From an uncultured Fretibacterium sp. (GTDB lineage Bacteria > Synergistota > Synergistia > Synergistales > Aminobacteriaceae), in the NCBI GenBank assembly GCA_947168585.1, contig CAMVMK010000004.1, forward strand, positions 1 to 64,000: 64,000 bases of DNA. Direction: 5' to 3'. A program made the position numbers and the translations under genes. The notes beneath the pieces are model-generated. The model searched no databases, was not told the origin of the DNA, and saw only the letters and a program-made list of their open reading frames with translations. Of this stretch, positions 11,492 to 51,435 are shown one piece after another (within the stretch, counting starts at the first letter, position 1; each line of letters begins with the position of its first letter).

Positions 11492-12329
11492 CGGCGTTAT
11501 TAATATTAATATCAAAATCTACTGCGCGCTGTTCTCCCGGCATTTCGAGACATACTGCACCTAATCTTCCGGAAGAAAAAGCCTCTATAAATTTTTGTCC
11601 TGCAAGTTCTAAATTTACACGGCCTCCCGAAATTAAACAGCCGTATTTTCGTCCGATGTTTTCAAGAATTGTGCCGGACTCTAAATTTTCTGATTGAATT
11701 TCTACAGGAATTAAATTTTGCATTTCGTTAGCACACAAAAATTTTATTAAAGATAAGGCCGCGTTTTCATAGCCTCCGACAACTTCAGCTTTAGCACAGC
11801 CGAGCCACGATAAAATTAAATGAGCTCCGGCTTCGGCATGAGGATCTAAAATTCCTGGCGAATCTACAATCAACATTCCTTCGTTTTTGTACCAGCTTAC
11901 TGACTTAGTAATTCCGGGAATATTGCCGACACCTGCGTTGGCTTTGCAGATTAATGAATTTAATAACAAAGATTTTCCGACGTTAGGAATACCAACGACA
12001 GCTAATCTGACTTCACGGTGTGAGGGTTTGAATTTCAAGACAGCTTTTTTAATATTTGAAAGTCCCTCGCGTTTTCTTAAATCGGCGGCGAAAGTGTGTT
12101 TTAACGAATCCAGCCACAATTTTAATTTTTGCGTGTCGGCTAAATCTTTTCTCGATAAAACATGAATTACAGGCTTGATTTTTGCTAAATATTTTATAAG
12201 AGGCGATGAAGTTGAAGCCGGAGCTCTTGAGTCTCTGACCTCAACTATTAAATCAAGTTTTGAAACTATTTCATTTAATTTTCTTGTCCCCTTAGCCATG
12301 TGGCCGGGATACCAAACTGTACGAGGCAT
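11466..12329 (-). CDS. rbgA: Ribosome biogenesis GTPase RbgA (YlqF)
   Basis: 287 residues, circularly permuted GTPase. PGHMAKGTRKL at the N-terminus, G4-like SRKDLAD first, then G1 GIPNVGKS and G3 VDSPG, with a C-terminal helical domain. It acts in late assembly of the 50S subunit. It is followed by overlapping rnhB and lies 6 bases after lepB. Confidence 0.94.
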   Translation of the reverse strand: MPRTVWYPGHMAKGTRKLNEIVSKLDLIVEVRDSRAPASTSSPLIKYLAKIKPVIHVLSRKDLADTQKLKLWLDSLKHTFAADLRKREGLSNIKKAVLKFKPSHREVRLAVVGIPNVGKSLLLNSLICKANAGVGNIPGITKSVSWYKNEGMLIVDSPGILDPHAEAGAHLILSWLGCAKAEVVGGYENAALSLIKFLCANEMQNLIPVEIQSENLESGTILENIGRKYGCLISGGRVNLELAGQKFIEAFSSGRLGAVCLEMPGEQRAVDFDININNADGAADFVQ

Positions 12330-43090: not shown

Positions 43091-43258
43091 TAAACATGAA
43101 AAAATTCCACACAAAATTTCAATGAGAAAAAATAAATTTTATTACTACTTTTATGACTACAAAACTCGCGGTTTTAATTTGTTGTTGTCGAAGTTTACGC
43201 GCACGCTCTAAGAAAATTTTTGAATGAAATTTTGAGCCGTTATCGTGTGAAAAAATTT

Positions 43259-43300
43259 TTTCACTTTCTGCTTCCTAACTTCTATTTCCTAATTGTTTTT
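43259..43300. repeat. Degenerate heptamer repeat upstream of purL
   Basis: TTTCACTTTCTGCTTCCTAACTTC-type units, pyrimidine-rich on the plus strand, in the 258-base region between fumC and purL. Nothing else (no recognisable riboswitch) was seen in this region. Confidence 0.5.
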
Positions 43301-43348
43301 AATGGTATTATCTTATGGCAATTTTTTATTAAGGAGCAAAATTTTTTT

Positions 43349-46300
43349 ATGCAAATATTTAGAATTTATACCGAACGTAAAGACCGCGAAAATTTCGAGG
43401 TTCTTTCACTGCTTGACGAAATTAAAAATATTCCCGGCAATGAAAATATTTCGGGCGTAAGAATATTAAACCGCTATGACGTTGAAGGACTTAATAATAA
43501 AATGTTCGAGACGTGCAAACATGAAATATTCGCAGAACCTTTCACTGATAATATTTTAGATACTCTTCCTAATGATTTTGAAACAGGAGAAATTTTAGCT
43601 GTAGAGTTTTTGCCCGGCCAATACGACCAGAGAGCAGACGCGGCTGAAAGGTGTGCAATGCTGCTTTTAGGATTTAGACCTGTAATTAAAACTGCAAAAA
43701 TTTATATTTTTTATGGTGATCTTAAAAATTTCAGTGCTGTCAAAAAATTCTTAATTAACCCCGTCGAAGCAAGAGAAGCACAACTAAGCGAATATAAATC
43801 CCTCGAAATTGATTATCCCGCCCCAAGCGATGTTAAAAAAATTCCGCTGAATAAATTAACCGAATTAAAAAATTTAGCGATGAGCCGCGAGGATTTAGAA
43901 TGCTGCCGAAAATATTTTGAAGCTGAGGGCCGCGACCCGACCGAAACTGAAATTAAAGTTTTAGATACTTACTGGTCAGACCATTGCAGACACACAACTT
44001 TTTTAACTCAAATTGAAGCCGCAGAAATCCAAGATTTGAAAGTCCTCGAAGTTTACGAAAATTATTTATCAATCCGCAAAGAATTGCACCGTGATAATAA
44101 ACCCGTAACTTTAATGGACATTGCTACAATCGGCGCGAAATATCTTAAATCAAAAGGCAAACTCCCTGATTTAGTTGAAAGTGAAGAAAATAACGCCTGT
44201 ACTGTAAAAATTAATGTTGATGTTGACGGTAAAAATGAAGATTGGCTTTTACTCTTCAAAAATGAAACTCATAACCACCCGACTGAAATAGAGCCTTTTG
44301 GAGGCGCGGCAACCTGTATCGGCGGAGCTATCAGAGATCCTTTATCGGGGCGCGCTTATGTTTATCAGGCTATGAGAATTACTGGTGCTGCAAGTCCTTT
44401 TGAGCCTACAATGCCGGGTAAATTATCTCAACGTGCAATTATCACAAAGGCTGCTGCAGGTTACAGTTCATACGGAAATCAAATCGGACTTCCTACGGGA
44501 TTAGTTGACGAAATTTATCACGAGGGCTACAAAGCTAAAAGGCTCGAAGTCGGCGCGGTTATTGCAGCTGCTCCTGAAAAAAATGTTATAAGAGAAAGGC
44601 CAAGCAGCGGCGATTTAGTTTTGTTATTAGGCGGCAGGACAGGCAGGGACGGAATAGGCGGTGCAACAGGCTCTTCAGTGTCGCATAATTCGAGCTTTAT
44701 AGAAACTCGCGGAGCAGAAGTTCAAAAAGGCAACGCTCCTGAAGAAAGAAAGCTGCAGAGATTATTTAGAAATCCTGAATTTACGAAACTAATTAAACGC
44801 TGTAACGATTTCGGGGCAGGCGGTGTCAGTGTTGCTGTCGGTGAACTTGCTGACGGGCTTGAAATTAATCTTGACGCTGTGCCTTTGAAATATTCCGGCC
44901 TTGACGGTACTGAAATAGCCGTTAGCGAATCTCAAGAAAGAATGGCCGTAGTTGTTGCTGAAAAAGATGCTGAAAAAGTTAAAAATTTAGCATTAAGCGA
45001 GGACGTTCAAGCAACGGTAATAGCGCGCGTAAATAATTCAGGCCGTATGAAAATGACTTGGCGCGGCAAAGAAATAGTTAATCTTTCACGCGAATTTATA
45101 AACAGCAACGGAGCAGCGAGAAAAATCAATGTTAAAGTCAATAATTTTCACTCCTCACCCCTCACCCCTCACTCCTCACTTTTAACTGACTTAAATATCT
45201 GTTCTCATCGCGGACTTGCTGAAAGATTTGACTCGACAGTCGGAGCTCACAGTGTTTTAATGCCTTTCGGAGGGAAATTCCAAAAAACTCCGGCTCAAGC
45301 TATGGCCGCTAAAATTCCTGTAGGAAATCACGAGACTGACACATGCTCTGTAATGTCATGGGGCTTTGACCCTTTTATATCAGAAAAATCGACTTTTAAC
45401 GGTGCTTATTTAGCTGTTCTTGAATCTCTCTGCAAAATTATCGCAGCGGGAGCAGACTTAAAAAAATGCTGGCTGACTTTTCAGGAATATTTCGGGAAGC
45501 CCGGCGATAATCCTGAGCGTTGGGGGCTTCCTTTCGGAGCATTGTTAGGGGCTTTGAAAGCTCAGTTAGATTTTGAAGTTGCTGCTATAGGCGGTAAAGA
45601 CTCAATGAGCGGTTCTTTCACTGATATTGACGGTAAAAATTTAGATGTTCCGCCTACTTTAATATCTTTTGCTGCTGCTGTAACAGACGTGAAAAAAATT
45701 CTCTCGCCCGAATTTAAGCGTGCAAATTCAAAAGTTTATATTCTTGAACCCGAATATGACGGGCGCGGACTTCCTGAAAAATCTTCAATGCTGAAAAATT
45801 TTGCTTTAATCGAGGAATTAAATTCGCAGGGAAAAATTTTATCGTGTTATGTTCCTACATTCGGCGGAGTCAAGGCCGCAGTTTTCAAAATGTGTTTAGG
45901 AAATAATTTAGGCTTTGAATTTGCAGATAAAAATTTTGATGATAAACGCGGAAAATTCATAATCGAAGCTGATGAAGAATTAAATCTTAAAGTTTTAGGC
46001 CGTGTTCTTGAAACTCCTGAAATAATTTTAGACAGCGAGAAAATTAACTTGGCCGATGCTGAAAAAATTTATAATTCACCGTTTGAAAAAATTTTCCCGA
46101 CTGAAGTTAAAACTTCTGCAAAAATCCCTGAAATTAAATTCAGCGGAAATAAAAGTTTTTCAAACCCTCACCCCTCATCTCTAACCCCTAAGTTTTTAAT
46201 TCCTGTTTTCACTGGTACGAATTGCGAATATGAAACAGCTAAGGCAATTTCAAAGGCCGGAGGAAATGCAAAAATTTTTGTCGTGAGGACTTTAACGCCG

Positions 46301-46987
46301 GATTTAATGAAAATTTCAGCGGAAGAATTTGCAAATGAGTTAAAATCTTCGCAGGCTCTTGTTTTGCCCGGAGGATTTTCAAACGGCGATGAACCTGACG
46401 GCTCAGGAAAATTTATAGCGATTTTCTTACGAAGTCCCGTAGTGCGCGCTGCCCTCGAAGATTTAATCGACAAACGCGGCGGACTTGTCGCAGGAATTTG
46501 CAACGGTTTTCAAGCTCTCGTTAAGACGGGTCTGTTGCCTTACGGAAAAATCTGCGAACCTGACGAACTCAAAACTACTTTAACTTTTAATAAAATCGGC
46601 CGTCATCAATCAAAAATCATTTTATCGCGCGTCATTAATAATTCTTCAGCGTGGCTTAGAAAAACAAAAATCGGCGAAATTTATTCAATTCCTATTTCAC
46701 ACGGTGAGGGGAGATTTTCATGTTCGCCGGAAATTTTTGAAAGTTTAATGAGCAGCGGCCAAATAGCCGGACAATATGTAAATCACTCGGGCGAGCCTTC
46801 AATGGAGACGCAGTATAATCCTTCAGGTTCATTCGGTGCTGTCGAGTGCTTGACTTCGCCTGACGGAAGAATTTTAGGCCGAATGGGACATGTTGAAAGG
46901 GTCGGACGGGATTTATATAAAAATGTTCCGGGAAATTACGATATGAAATTTTTTGAATCAGCAATAAATTTTTTGAAAAACAGTTAA
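43349..46987 (+). CDS. purL: Phosphoribosylformylglycinamidine synthase, fused synthetase and glutaminase
   Basis: 1212 residues from ATG 43349 with AAGGAG upstream (12 bases); the frame extends to 43220 without support. Step four of purine synthesis. Synthetase half: DTYWSDHCRHTTF, NETHNHPTEIEPFGGAATCIGG, DFGAGGVSVAVGE. Glutaminase half: VLPGGFSNGD, nucleophile Cys1051 in AGICNGFQ, HGEGRF. It is the single-chain clostridial type, so no purQ is needed. Two short stretches (residues about 600-611 and 939-948) are encoded by heptamer repeats and lie in linkers. Confidence 0.95.
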   Translation: MQIFRIYTERKDRENFEVLSLLDEIKNIPGNENISGVRILNRYDVEGLNNKMFETCKHEIFAEPFTDNILDTLPNDFETGEILAVEFLPGQYDQRADAAERCAMLLLGFRPVIKTAKIYIFYGDLKNFSAVKKFLINPVEAREAQLSEYKSLEIDYPAPSDVKKIPLNKLTELKNLAMSREDLECCRKYFEAEGRDPTETEIKVLDTYWSDHCRHTTFLTQIEAAEIQDLKVLEVYENYLSIRKELHRDNKPVTLMDIATIGAKYLKSKGKLPDLVESEENNACTVKINVDVDGKNEDWLLLFKNETHNHPTEIEPFGGAATCIGGAIRDPLSGRAYVYQAMRITGAASPFEPTMPGKLSQRAIITKAAAGYSSYGNQIGLPTGLVDEIYHEGYKAKRLEVGAVIAAAPEKNVIRERPSSGDLVLLLGGRTGRDGIGGATGSSVSHNSSFIETRGAEVQKGNAPEERKLQRLFRNPEFTKLIKRCNDFGAGGVSVAVGELADGLEINLDAVPLKYSGLDGTEIAVSESQERMAVVVAEKDAEKVKNLALSEDVQATVIARVNNSGRMKMTWRGKEIVNLSREFINSNGAARKINVKVNNFHSSPLTPHSSLLTDLNICSHRGLAERFDSTVGAHSVLMPFGGKFQKTPAQAMAAKIPVGNHETDTCSVMSWGFDPFISEKSTFNGAYLAVLESLCKIIAAGADLKKCWLTFQEYFGKPGDNPERWGLPFGALLGALKAQLDFEVAAIGGKDSMSGSFTDIDGKNLDVPPTLISFAAAVTDVKKILSPEFKRANSKVYILEPEYDGRGLPEKSSMLKNFALIEELNSQGKILSCYVPTFGGVKAAVFKMCLGNNLGFEFADKNFDDKRGKFIIEADEELNLKVLGRVLETPEIILDSEKINLADAEKIYNSPFEKIFPTEVKTSAKIPEIKFSGNKSFSNPHPSSLTPKFLIPVFTGTNCEYETAKAISKAGGNAKIFVVRTLTPDLMKISAEEFANELKSSQALVLPGGFSNGDEPDGSGKFIAIFLRSPVVRAALEDLIDKRGGLVAGICNGFQALVKTGLLPYGKICEPDELKTTLTFNKIGRHQSKIILSRVINNSSAWLRKTKIGEIYSIPISHGEGRFSCSPEIFESLMSSGQIAGQYVNHSGEPSMETQYNPSGSFGAVECLTSPDGRILGRMGHVERVGRDLYKNVPGNYDMKFFESAINFLKNS
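45148..45180. repeat. Heptamer repeat inside purL (site 1)
   Basis: Four 7-base units CTCCTCA/CCCCTCA are read in frame as HSSPLTPHSS between the two synthetase repeats, just before DLNICSHRGL. Same sequence family as the intergenic arrays. Confidence 0.85.
46165..46190. repeat. Heptamer repeat inside purL (site 2)
   Basis: CCCTCACCCCTCATCTCTAA is read in frame as NPHPSSLTP in the linker just before the glutaminase domain (FLIPVFTGTNCEY). Confidence 0.8.
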
Positions 46988-47050
46988 GAGTTAGGAATGA
47001 AAAAGATTTTTTGTCTTTTCAGTTCCTACTTCCTACTTCCTAATTCCTAC
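46988..47050. terminator. Heptamer-derived hairpin after purL
   Basis: AGGAATGAAAAAGA (about 46993-47006) pairs with TCTTTTCAGTTCCT (about 47014-47027) with few mismatches; further TTCCTAC units follow. Probable terminator. Confidence 0.6.
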
Positions 47051-47079
47051 TTAAAATAAAATTAGAGGAGTGTTAAATT

Positions 47080-50000
47080 TTGGATAGTAAAAGTCTTGAA
47101 CCTTATATAGGTAAAAATATTGAATTATGGTTAATGCCGGACGGACGAAGAACTATAACCGGCGTTTTAGTAAAATGCGAGGAGCAGCACATAGTCTTAA
47201 GTAACGGCAGTATGTTAGGTTATCCTCTTATATTAGGTTTCCAGCCCGCCGCAGGGGCAGCAGAAATTGTTATCGAACAGCCCGCGCCCGCTCCAGAGCC
47301 GATAATAGAAGAGAAAAAATCCGCCGTTATAAAATTTCAAGCTGATCTCGAAAAAATTTTTGATAAGCTGAAAGAAACTTTAGAGACTTTCACACTTAAC
47401 GCCGATTATGTCAGAAAATTCCGGCCTAAGGGTCAGAATAAAATTCAAAGTGTAATTGAAAGTATCCTAACTAAATATCAATACGCAGTCAAAACTCACG
47501 AAGATAGACCCTACTCAATGCGAATGAGAGAACTTGTCGAAAATGCTTATCATCTATGGAAAAATAATAAAACGAGCATGGCCGCAAGCGAAATTTATGC
47601 TTTTACTCTTTATCTTACGGGCGAAAGTGAAAAGAGCGTGAAACTTTACATGAGAATTCACGATTTTCACGGGGCTTTTATGGCAGCGTCTTCAGCAGCA
47701 TCGAAAATTTTATCAGCAGCCTGTATTGCTGTCAGTGAGGATTTAACACCGGCAAAATTCGCAGCATTTTTGAAGTTAGAGCCTCCGCAGTTAGCTTCGA
47801 TTTTAATTTGGATTTTAGACAACGTTATAAAAGACAACAAAGAAGCCGAATTTAATAACGCCGCTGCTCTTGCCTGCAAAATTTTAGGTTTTAACGACTG
47901 GGCGGACAGTGAAATTTTATTTAACAATGAAAATAAAAAAGCTCTCCGTGATTGGCTTTCAACACGTCCTACTGACGATAAAATTATTGCAGACGCTCTG
48001 AAAATTTTAAGCAAAGACAGTTTATTAACTCAAGAAGAAACTGTTCAGAAAGTCGATTGGACAACGCAGAGATTTGAGGGAGATTTTGATTTCTTTAATC
48101 CTAACCGCGATAAATTATACGGATTTATAAAATGTCCGGTCTTAAAAAAATACGGCGTAACTTTGAGCAATGAAAATTCTATTTTCGTTCATTTTAATCA
48201 AATTCAAGACAGACAGCTCCGTCAAAAATTATTACTCGGGAAAAAAATGCACCCGGACTTGCGCGTAACTTTCAAATTAGGCAGCAATAATTACGGCCCT
48301 GCGGCTTCTGAAGTCCGCGAGAAAAGCGATATTGATACCGTATTAAAAATTAATATGCAGTCGGCACTTGCTGAAGAGGGGAAAATAGATTTTTACCGCC
48401 GTCATGACGCAATTCCTTTCGGGAAAATCCGTGCTAAAAGCGGAGAAGTTTTTACGTTTAACGAGTTAAATATCTCTGACCCTTTATTGATGGTATTTCT
48501 TGAATATTCGCCGTCAGCTGAGGGCTTGCCTGTAAGATTTACGCGTTCGTCTCTTGATAACGAGAAAGTTCAAATTCATAAAGTCGAGGCCGCTGAACCT
48601 TTCCCCGATGATAAAATTAAAGCGTGGCAGGAGGGCGGATTAATCGAAAAAGCCCGCGAGAAAATGAATTTGGCCGTTGCTGAAAAAGATTTTGAATTAA
48701 AATTTGACGAAGAAGAATTTGATCCCGAAGTTGAAGAACTTTTAGAGCGCGATTATTTCCCTTTAGCACCGTATGTTCCGGGCGAAAATAAGCAGCAGAA
48801 TTTTTCAGCTCCCGAGAAAAAATTTCAGCCTCATAATAATAAAAATGGCGTTGAAACTTTCAACGAACTTCCGAAATTTTTGCAGGATAAAATTTTGAGC
48901 GCAACTATCGCGGGAAAATGCAACACTGAATTTTTAGGCGACAGCTTTTACAGGCGCGGACATTACCGTGAAGTCAAAGCAAATTATTTGCAGTTAATCA
49001 GCCGTTTCAACAGCGATGACGCAAGTTTATCGAACGCTGAGAGAGCCGAGAGATATTTTTTGATAGCGCGTTACGTTTATAATTTTTTCTCGCTTGCGGA
49101 CGAGACGGACATTAAATTATATTCAGCTGCCGACGAAGACAATATTAGAATTATGGCTTATAAAGGTCTTGAGTATATGATTTATGACCAATTCGACTTG
49201 GCCAAGAAAAATGATGAACATTACGACACGGCGCGGCGTTATTGTTTGATTAGAATTGCGGACGAAATTCAGACGGCGCGGCGTATTGATAACGAAAATA
49301 CTTGGTTTAAGATTTATATTTATTCTTATTTTGTGAACGGCCTGCACTATCATTCTAAATCGGGAAAATATTCGCCTCAGGATATTTCGCTGACGGGCAG
49401 CAGTCTTCTTGAATGTAACGATTTTGCGAAATTTTTTGACGGACTTTTGGCACTTGCTTACGTTACAGAGCCTTCAATGCTTTACCCGACTTTGCGCTCA
49501 TTAATTTATAATCCCGAATACTCGGCCTTTATGATTGAAAAGTTAGGAATAAGCTACAAAGACGGCGACGGAATGACGGAACTTCAGGCAGCTTTTCAGG
49601 CTTCCGTTGATGAGTATGCAAAACGCAAAGATATTTTTGAGCTTGACCCTGAAGTAAAACTTTCGCCGGAGATTTTTAGAATTTTGAGCGTTCAGTCGGC
49701 ATTAATACGCTTAATGAAAAAAGAATTAACGCATATTTTGAGGACTCCGCTTGAAAATCTTGACGCGGCATTGAAACGCGCGACACCGATTTTAGACACT
49801 GAAGAATATAAAAATTCTCTTGAGAAGACGCGCCGGAAATACAATCCTGAAGCGGGGCTTTTGGATATTCTGCCGATTAATGTTTTAGGGAAAATCATGG
49901 GACAATATTGGGGACATTTTGCGCCTTATTTTGATAACAAACCGTTTTTGACTTATTGGAAAGAACGTTTTGATAAATTGCAGTGGGTAAGAAATCCTGT

Positions 50001-50091
50001 TGTTCATGCACACCCTGAATATTTGAAGAAAGAAGACATCGAGGAAGTTCAAGCGATTTGCGGCGAATTGACAGATTGTCTTTCAAAGTAG
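47080..50091 (+). CDS. Large RNA-binding-type protein: Sm-like, cold-shock-like and C-terminal HEPN domains
   Basis: 1003 residues, TTG start with AGAGGAG 9 bases upstream. Not a recognised family. About 5-52: Sm-like barrel (GKNIELWLMPDGRRTITGVL). About 110-310: helical. About 345-400: cold-shock-like barrel (KLYGFIKCPVL, SIFVHFNQI). About 437-490: a second barrel of the same kind (IPFGKIRAKSGEVFTFNEL). About 610-880: helical solenoid. About 890-1000: helices ending with WVRNPVVHAHPEYL, where Arg971-Asn972-x3-His976 matches the HEPN ribonuclease motif. No signal peptide, so cytosolic. Monocistronic between two hairpins. Proposed: an RNA-binding protein with RNase activity; housekeeping or defence role undecided. 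Confidence 0.7.
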   Translation: MDSKSLEPYIGKNIELWLMPDGRRTITGVLVKCEEQHIVLSNGSMLGYPLILGFQPAAGAAEIVIEQPAPAPEPIIEEKKSAVIKFQADLEKIFDKLKETLETFTLNADYVRKFRPKGQNKIQSVIESILTKYQYAVKTHEDRPYSMRMRELVENAYHLWKNNKTSMAASEIYAFTLYLTGESEKSVKLYMRIHDFHGAFMAASSAASKILSAACIAVSEDLTPAKFAAFLKLEPPQLASILIWILDNVIKDNKEAEFNNAAALACKILGFNDWADSEILFNNENKKALRDWLSTRPTDDKIIADALKILSKDSLLTQEETVQKVDWTTQRFEGDFDFFNPNRDKLYGFIKCPVLKKYGVTLSNENSIFVHFNQIQDRQLRQKLLLGKKMHPDLRVTFKLGSNNYGPAASEVREKSDIDTVLKINMQSALAEEGKIDFYRRHDAIPFGKIRAKSGEVFTFNELNISDPLLMVFLEYSPSAEGLPVRFTRSSLDNEKVQIHKVEAAEPFPDDKIKAWQEGGLIEKAREKMNLAVAEKDFELKFDEEEFDPEVEELLERDYFPLAPYVPGENKQQNFSAPEKKFQPHNNKNGVETFNELPKFLQDKILSATIAGKCNTEFLGDSFYRRGHYREVKANYLQLISRFNSDDASLSNAERAERYFLIARYVYNFFSLADETDIKLYSAADEDNIRIMAYKGLEYMIYDQFDLAKKNDEHYDTARRYCLIRIADEIQTARRIDNENTWFKIYIYSYFVNGLHYHSKSGKYSPQDISLTGSSLLECNDFAKFFDGLLALAYVTEPSMLYPTLRSLIYNPEYSAFMIEKLGISYKDGDGMTELQAAFQASVDEYAKRKDIFELDPEVKLSPEIFRILSVQSALIRLMKKELTHILRTPLENLDAALKRATPILDTEEYKNSLEKTRRKYNPEAGLLDILPINVLGKIMGQYWGHFAPYFDNKPFLTYWKERFDKLQWVRNPVVHAHPEYLKKEDIEEVQAICGELTDCLSK

Positions 50092-50146
50092 TTAGGAGTT
50101 AGGAATGAGGAGTTAGCCTGCTGTTTGGTCAGGTTGCTCCTTATTT
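50091..50146. terminator. Heptamer-linked terminator hairpin
   Basis: After TAGGAGT units, AGGAGTTAGCCTG (50108-50120) pairs with CAGGTTGCTCCT (50130-50141) with one bulge and one mismatch, followed by TATTTTTATTTTTG. Terminates the HEPN gene; the prepilin gene converges on it. Confidence 0.75.
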
Positions 50147-50812
50147 TTATTTTTGTTTCGCTAAATCAATTATCGGCATATAAACATATTCTGAATCTTT
50201 TTTATAAAAATCCGTTTGATTTTTGTAGAGTTCAAATTCTTCGGCTCGTTCGGCGATTTTTTGTTTAAGTTTTTTTACGAGGGCGTTTTCTGTTTCAAAG
50301 CGATAAACTACGTACCATTTATTATAACCTCCACCCAAATTTCTCGAAGCATCAACCAAAGCGTAGCCGCCTTGTATTGCCCCTGAACCTCGATCTGTAT
50401 CTTCATTTACAGATGGTATAATTCTTACATCTTCTGGAGGATACGCAGTTTTGATATATTTCATAACGGTATCGCGGCCATGCTCTTTATCGCTTTTTTT
50501 GCGCATAACATTTTGAATACACTGCTCGGCTTTCCCCTTCAAAAAATATTCATCATTAAGAGTTGAATAAGGATACGTAACCATATAGTTAAATTTTCCT
50601 GTACGGTCAATATAATCGCCGTAATCTGCAATCCATTCGAGAGCCGCAGATTTTAATATTCTCATGTTGTTAATGATGTTATTAGCTTCAGCCGAGATAA
50701 TACTCTCATCGCCGGAGATCATGATAGTGCCTGCCAAAATTACAACTACAACAATGACTAATAATAATTCGATGAGCGTGAAACCTTTGCGTGAAAATTT
50801 TTCTTTTTTCAT
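50147..50812 (-). CDS. Type IV prepilin-like protein
   Basis: 221 residues. Leader MKKEKFSRKG, cleavage before FTLIELLLVIVVVVILAG (Glu5 present), then a long globular head. Processed by the PilD at 19447. No disulfide pair is evident; the head is rich in Tyr and Asp. Could be a minor pilin or pseudopilin; the rest of a pilus assembly system is not in the window. It overlaps the upstream gene by ATGA. Confidence 0.88.
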   Translation of the reverse strand: MKKEKFSRKGFTLIELLLVIVVVVILAGTIMISGDESIISAEANNIINNMRILKSAALEWIADYGDYIDRTGKFNYMVTYPYSTLNDEYFLKGKAEQCIQNVMRKKSDKEHGRDTVMKYIKTAYPPEDVRIIPSVNEDTDRGSGAIQGGYALVDASRNLGGGYNKWYVVYRFETENALVKKLKQKIAERAEEFELYKNQTDFYKKDSEYVYMPIIDLAKQK

Positions 50813-51435
50813 TTTGAAACCGCCAATGCTTGTTGAATTTCAAATCTTATTAAATCTCTTAATTTTTCTAAATCTACTGCAGGCTGAGGTGTTGAAGTCA
50901 TAAATTTTAATTTGCTGAAAATCTTTTTTAACCACGGCGCAAGACTCGGAACTACGGCAAGCAAGGTTGCTAAAATTCCCAAAATCGTAAGTATCCAATA
51001 AATCATTGTTTCAACGTTATTGACTTTGACTTCTAATTTAGCTGTCTGCATTTCGAGAGCATGAATATCATTCTTTAATTCTGCTTTAACACCTTGAATC
51101 TCCTCATGAAGTCCAGATTTAACGCTCTGAATTTCCTCGTGAAGTTCAGCTTTTACGCTCTGTATCTCTTCGTGAAGTTCTGTTTTAACAGCTTGAATTT
51201 CTTCATGAAGTTCTACCCTAACAGCTTGAATTTTATTATTTAATCTTGCTTCCATTTCCTGCATTTCACGGCGCAGCTGTTCATTGCCGAGTTTTATTTC
51301 GGTCATAAAAGCGTCCATTTTCGCTTCAAAAACATCGCGGCGCAAATAAATTTCATTATCTTTTGAGACTTCAGCAAACGCAATAGACGAAAAAATCAAG
51401 AGAAAAAACCAAGCTGCGTAAAATTTTTTATACAT
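50809..51435 (-). CDS. Signal-peptide coiled-coil repeat protein with membrane anchor
   Basis: 208 residues. Signal peptide MYKKFYAAWFFLLIFSSIAFA, coiled coil (about 25-140) with five near-identical 11-residue units of the type VKAELHEEIQS, a hydrophobic helix (IYWILTILGILATLLAVVPSLA), then a soluble tail. It may hold the coil in the periplasm. Overlaps the prepilin start, so both are made together. Function unknown. Confidence 0.8.
   Translation of the reverse strand: MYKKFYAAWFFLLIFSSIAFAEVSKDNEIYLRRDVFEAKMDAFMTEIKLGNEQLRREMQEMEARLNNKIQAVRVELHEEIQAVKTELHEEIQSVKAELHEEIQSVKSGLHEEIQGVKAELKNDIHALEMQTAKLEVKVNNVETMIYWILTILGILATLLAVVPSLAPWLKKIFSKLKFMTSTPQPAVDLEKLRDLIRFEIQQALAVSK
51076..51243 (-). 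repeat. Five 33-bp tandem repeats in the coiled-coil gene
   Basis: Units encode V(K/R)xELHEEIQ(A/S/G) and differ by a few bases each. Period 33 bp equals one hendecad. Confidence 0.85.

Follow-up and report, generated by a model that had tools for sequence, protein, structure and literature searches.

A gene behind purL in rumen Synergistaceae encodes a protein with Sm-like and cold-shock barrels and, very probably, a Swt1-like HEPN domain

The reading frame at 47080..50091 of the window (the whole 64-kb stretch of DNA that was analysed; coordinates are on the forward strand unless stated) raises the question of what its product, a protein of 1003 residues for which a search of NCBIfam gave no matches, would do for its host. 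An earlier note on this DNA had called the frame and proposed that it encodes an RNA-sensing or RNA-processing nuclease, a stand-alone and candidate undescribed system with a terminator of its own. The frame proved to be real. It opens at a TTG codon, is preceded by a good Shine-Dalgarno sequence (AGAGGAG, 47064..47070) 9 nt upstream of that start and is under strong purifying selection between close relatives, with a dN/dS of about 0.05 (for G020 compared with G007, dN was 0.013 and dS 0.261, and dN in the HEPN part was zero). There was one match to the gene in its own genome. A terminator-like hairpin with a T-rich tail (50109..50155; fold z -4.6) was found behind it, in agreement with the note; a simple terminator scan did not list this hairpin, probably because of a bulge.

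Analyses of the C-terminal domain (residues 861-1003, 49660..50088) indicated that it is very probably a Swt1-like HEPN domain, as judged from sequence comparison. Most members (17/24, best E 9.9e-5) matched the Pfam family HEPN_Swt1, with the matches listed for the family lying under the curated Pfam cut-off wherever a score was given; the best listed family score, 22.4 bits for the relative in G027, fell short of the PF18731 HEPN cut-off of 27.5 bits. When the domain was compared by hhalign with the Swt1-HEPN domains of other Synergistota, RNPVVH aligned in register with their RN..AH at a score of 26.3 (E 0.001), which was reached by none of 200 column shuffles (maximum 20.3), and slices of the remaining protein scored 8-14. 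The hhalign probability was only 22%, and we therefore regard the evidence for a HEPN domain as good, not final. In addition, the PADLOC candidate model PDC-M34B gave a weak match to residues 910-993 (E 2e-4). Searching the PDB by sequence, with either the HEPN profile or the HEPN domain of L053, returned nothing relevant. An AlphaFold model of the HEPN part was all-helical with a pLDDT of 53, and Foldseek on this low-confidence model gave no HEPN match; the modelling left the fold unsettled because close sequences alone went in.

The earlier note had placed RNPVVH at Arg971 to His976 and had suggested that conservation of these two residues be checked. The motif, of the form Rx4H, lies there (49990..50007), and both residues were invariant in all 27 aligned homologues, whose identity to the window protein extends down to 29%. 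The position after Arg971 was always N or D in these rows, and an acidic residue in HEPN helix 1, Glu882 (49723..49725), was nearly or fully invariant. According to Anantharaman et al. (PMC3710099), the HEPN arginine is typically followed by N, D or H, and an acidic residue upstream probably augments the active site. The conservation of R971, H976 and E882, together with the N or D after the arginine, matches what has been published on active HEPN RNases (PMC3710099) and supports the assignment of an RNase. Could RNPVVH have arisen by chance in some helical domain other than HEPN? We consider this very improbable; the failure of Foldseek to find HEPN with the low-confidence model and the low hhalign probability speak for it, but the in-register profile match beat all shuffles, HEPN profile matches were found in many members and the Rx4H motif is invariant. 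It is quite unlikely, too, that the protein is an RNA-binding scaffold without catalytic activity, in which the HEPN domain simply binds RNA or dimerises. Some HEPN domains are non-catalytic (PMC3710099), and short paralogues with barrels and without HEPN exist; however, non-catalytic HEPN families are recognised by loss of the Rx4H motif (PMC3710099), whereas here the complete motif is invariant.

The N-terminal part was claimed to be an Sm-like barrel, and this was borne out. Five strands were predicted in residues 1-58 (47080..47253), and PF17384, the RimP C-terminal SH3 family, was matched in the relative L075 at 30.6 bits, above the cut-off of 26.3. In Foldseek the modelled residues matched Hfq structures with prob 1.00 and TMt values of about 0.6-0.75; the rmsd was mostly 1.7-2.2 A for an alignment of about 58 residues. 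The E-values of these matches were only about 0.5, which we attribute to the query having been the whole 1003-residue, largely low-confidence model. Residues 1-58 have the five-stranded bent barrel of Hfq or the RimP C-terminal domain, a likeness that concerns one domain of a large protein.

Two cold-shock-like barrels had also been proposed, and the first is clear. Residues 330-415 (48067..48324) carry an RNP1-like KLYGFI and an RNP2-like SIFVHF, both at conserved positions. PF00313 matched this domain of the window protein below its cut-off (E 1e-4) and was above the cut-off in the paralogue L049, so that PF00313, RNP1 and RNP2 were all found; the profile of the domain matched CspB and CspE structures at E 0.05-0.1. 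The second barrel (residues 425-505, 48352..48594) is degenerate, has a low-confidence strand pattern and gave no family match of its own, yet its G-K and F-N columns are conserved within the family.

Between these parts lie an array of predicted alpha-helices (residues 85-320, 47332..48039; pLDDT about 69-86 at residues 221-300) and a helical middle domain (residues 590-845, 48847..49614), which is highly conserved, is absent from the G027 variant (L074) and had no known relative among the families searched. The full-length AlphaFold model, built from nine rows, had a pLDDT of 47.7 and was of use only in the Sm barrel and in a portion of the helical array.

We consider it rather probable that the gene encodes a chromosomally fixed RNA-binding HEPN endoribonuclease with a role in an RNA-level stress response or innate immunity. 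The domains assigned in the earlier note and the conservation of its Rx4H motif held up, and an RNase that binds RNA and cuts it through HEPN is the best reading. This assignment draws on what was observed of the reading frame, its conservation, the domain profiles, the locus and the selection, from which we infer the following mode of action. The Sm-like barrel and the two cold-shock barrels would hold RNA, and the helical arrays would form a scaffold and probably also a switch. The Swt1-like HEPN domain, probably as a dimer, would then cut RNA without metal through Arg971 and His976 and leave 2',3'-cyclic phosphates. The gene is probably transcribed with purL or just behind it. We counted in favour of the endoribonuclease the STAND/AAA modules that lie between the RNA-binding and HEPN parts in a relative from G022, and against it the sub-cut-off HEPN matches, the poor model (pLDDT 53) and the lack of an adjacent antitoxin or defence gene.

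Relatives of the family were identified with a full-protein profile in 31 of the 43 genomes of the host genus, rumen Synergistaceae, and in none of 145 other Synergistota genomes (62 genera); HEPN-bearing forms were present in 29 genomes of the genus. A scan of GTDB genome contigs, sensitive to close relatives only, found Synergistales/Synergistaceae MAGs from ruminants alone, and the nearest named records of the window protein were likewise Synergistaceae/Synergistales MAGs from the ruminant gut. Searches of IMG/VR, phages and plasmids gave no family relatives. On the purL tree the presence of the gene required five changes, three of them forced by well-supported branches. The gene tree had six of the nine strong purL splits in common with the purL tree, and the distances of the two genes were correlated at 0.53, compared with at most 0.29 over 2000 permutations. 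Together, the tree agreement, the distance correlation and the presence changes indicated that the gene has mainly stayed at this site through inheritance, with losses and a degree of exchange. Purely vertical inheritance was rejected as too strong, as the two trees conflict at the other splits (e.g., G006).

The gene does not stand alone as the earlier note had it, since it adjoins purL. In the window purL occupies 43355..46987 and the gap is 92 bp; wherever the upstream side was readable elsewhere, the gene was behind purL on the same strand at a gap of 11-61 bp. The sole exception was G018, in which purL is on another contig. One locus (L067) had a nominal 38-bp overlap with purL because its first start codon was picked mechanically. 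This adjacency raises the alternative of a housekeeping factor for RNA processing or mRNA decay that would be tied to the purine state by co-transcription with purL. Its position directly behind purL, at mostly short gaps, and the low dN/dS are consistent with such a factor, which we nevertheless judge to be somewhat unlikely: the gene was unmatched in 12 of the genus's 43 genomes and in all other genera of the phylum that were searched, and a hairpin separates purL and the gene in the window.

Where the gene is lacking, the site is either empty, as in G024, in which a convergent ArsP-type permease gene lies about 40 bp after purL, and likewise in G039, or occupied by different genes, among them LicD- and glycosyltransferase-like ones. 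We rejected the idea that the site is a mobile defence hotspot, as the fillers that could be named belong to the DUF4422/GT-D-like, LicD, methyltransferase and HlyD types rather than to defence, and the filler genes had no PADLOC model matches. A comparison of the gene's neighbours with PADLOC gave no clear defence model, and no antitoxin or defence gene adjoins it; in the window it is flanked by purL and a prepilin-like gene. Beside the latter, a coiled-coil repeat protein with EEIQSVKAELH repeats is encoded at 50809-51435 on the reverse strand, and its weak PADLOC matches look like coiled-coil noise. In G033 (L052) the site directly after the end of purL yielded no more than one Sm-domain frame, of about 215 aa.

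The variant at the same site in G022 (L073:6914-13449) consists of two reading frames of 1683 aa and 523 aa that overlap at 11878-11965, and represents either one broken gene or a coupled pair. In the longer frame the Sm, helical, cold-shock and middle parts precede an AAA_16/STAND-type NTPase; the shorter encodes another AAA NTPase together with the HEPN domain, whose motif reads RNPVAH. Anantharaman et al. (PMC3710099) described Swt1-like HEPN domains with STAND, TPR or S1 modules, and HEPN-STAND proteins with cold-shock OB-folds, in conflict systems, and together with the STAND variant this points to a conflict role. The protein could then be an innate-immunity (abortive-infection) effector, which is one of the two roles allowed by the endoribonuclease reading. 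On detecting RNA from a phage, or a transcript that has stalled, the barrels would set the HEPN domain to cut cellular RNA. We regard this as a possible, if doubtful, explanation. The patchy presence within the genus and the weak match to PDC-M34B fit it as well. However, the family has no relative in phages, plasmids or IMG/VR, no clear defence gene was found among its neighbours or the site fillers, and both its constant location next to purL and the strength of the purifying selection point to a resident function in the cell.

Other departures from the window form were the 722- and 447-aa forms in G018 and, in G041 (L038/L076), a gene that is interrupted near residue 928, giving pieces of 936 and 71 aa, through an assembly error or a mutation. 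In addition, at least nine genomes carry paralogues of 310-500 aa elsewhere in the genome (L046:8129-9325, L047, L048, L049, L050, L051, L054-L057 and L077), which consist of an Sm barrel, a variable charged linker and two cold-shock barrels, with no HEPN domain. The paralogue at L046 lies 92 bp behind a gene that resembles, by eye, a DNA adenine methyltransferase.

It is tempting, although unlikely on present evidence, to see in the window protein a one-protein RNA-sensing nuclease that works without an NTPase or guide. Its Sm and cold-shock barrels would directly recognise foreign or aberrant RNA and release the HEPN RNase. The protein would then be a pared-down or ancestral version of STAND-HEPN immunity, retained at a single position in the chromosome after purL, and the HEPN-less paralogues would be possible antagonists. 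If the inferences hold, RNA recognition by Sm and cold-shock folds would be coupled directly to a HEPN nuclease in a single polypeptide. The forms met at this one site (a protein lacking an NTPase, carrying one, or lacking the middle domain, and no gene at all) make up a natural series that bears on how RNA-targeting proteins gain and lose regulatory modules.

The combination of Sm, cold-shock and HEPN domains is nameless in the databases searched, and every part is of a known kind. An open-literature search with incomplete coverage found no HEPN with Sm-like RNA-binding toxins. The closest parallels are the Swt1-like HEPN proteins Npun_F6454, MED222_16016 and Desac_1927, with STAND-ATPase, TPR or S1 modules (PMC3710099), which share with the window protein an Rx4H HEPN domain, an OB-fold RNA-binding module and helical repeats. 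By their descriptions they differ from it, as the window protein has no NTPase, an N-terminal Sm barrel, two cold-shock barrels and a C-terminal HEPN domain; their NTPase modules are paralleled in the G022 relative, the only place where a P-loop was present, the window protein having no P-loop family match. The Bacillus cereus HEPN-STAND protein gi 229028907 (PMC3710099) likewise joins HEPN and cold-shock-like OB-folds in one protein, with HEPN N-terminal, the cold-shock fold C-terminal and a STAND module, whereas the window protein has the two the other way round and lacks the NTPase. CoCoNuT type IV restriction (PMC11090510) brings cold-shock-like OB-folds and HEPN RNases into one system, but it is multi-gene, with a McrB-type GTPase and coiled coils, and no such family was found in the window protein. 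Among known defence systems, PADLOC gave only the weak similarity to PDC-M34B at residues 910-993, a model of 192 positions set against a protein of 1003 aa, and no defence-island context was found. The suggestion of an undescribed stand-alone system is thereby weakened, as the gene has a fixed neighbour in purL and no defence genes adjacent to it. The joining of HEPN to OB-fold, TPR and STAND modules has already been described (PMC3710099), and what is new is therefore the presence of an Sm barrel, the inverted domain order, the lack of an NTPase and the linkage to purL.

The window also contains a repeat, AGGAGTTAGGAATGAG, with nine matches of up to two mismatches in the 64 kb compared with 0.01 expected. 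Two copies, at 46986-47001 and 50094-50109, flank the gene and join the predicted hairpins, and seven more lie elsewhere in the window. Within PurL (43220-46987), stretches such as HSSPLTPHSSLLT resemble, by eye, translated copies of AGGAGTTAGGAATGAG inside the coding sequence.
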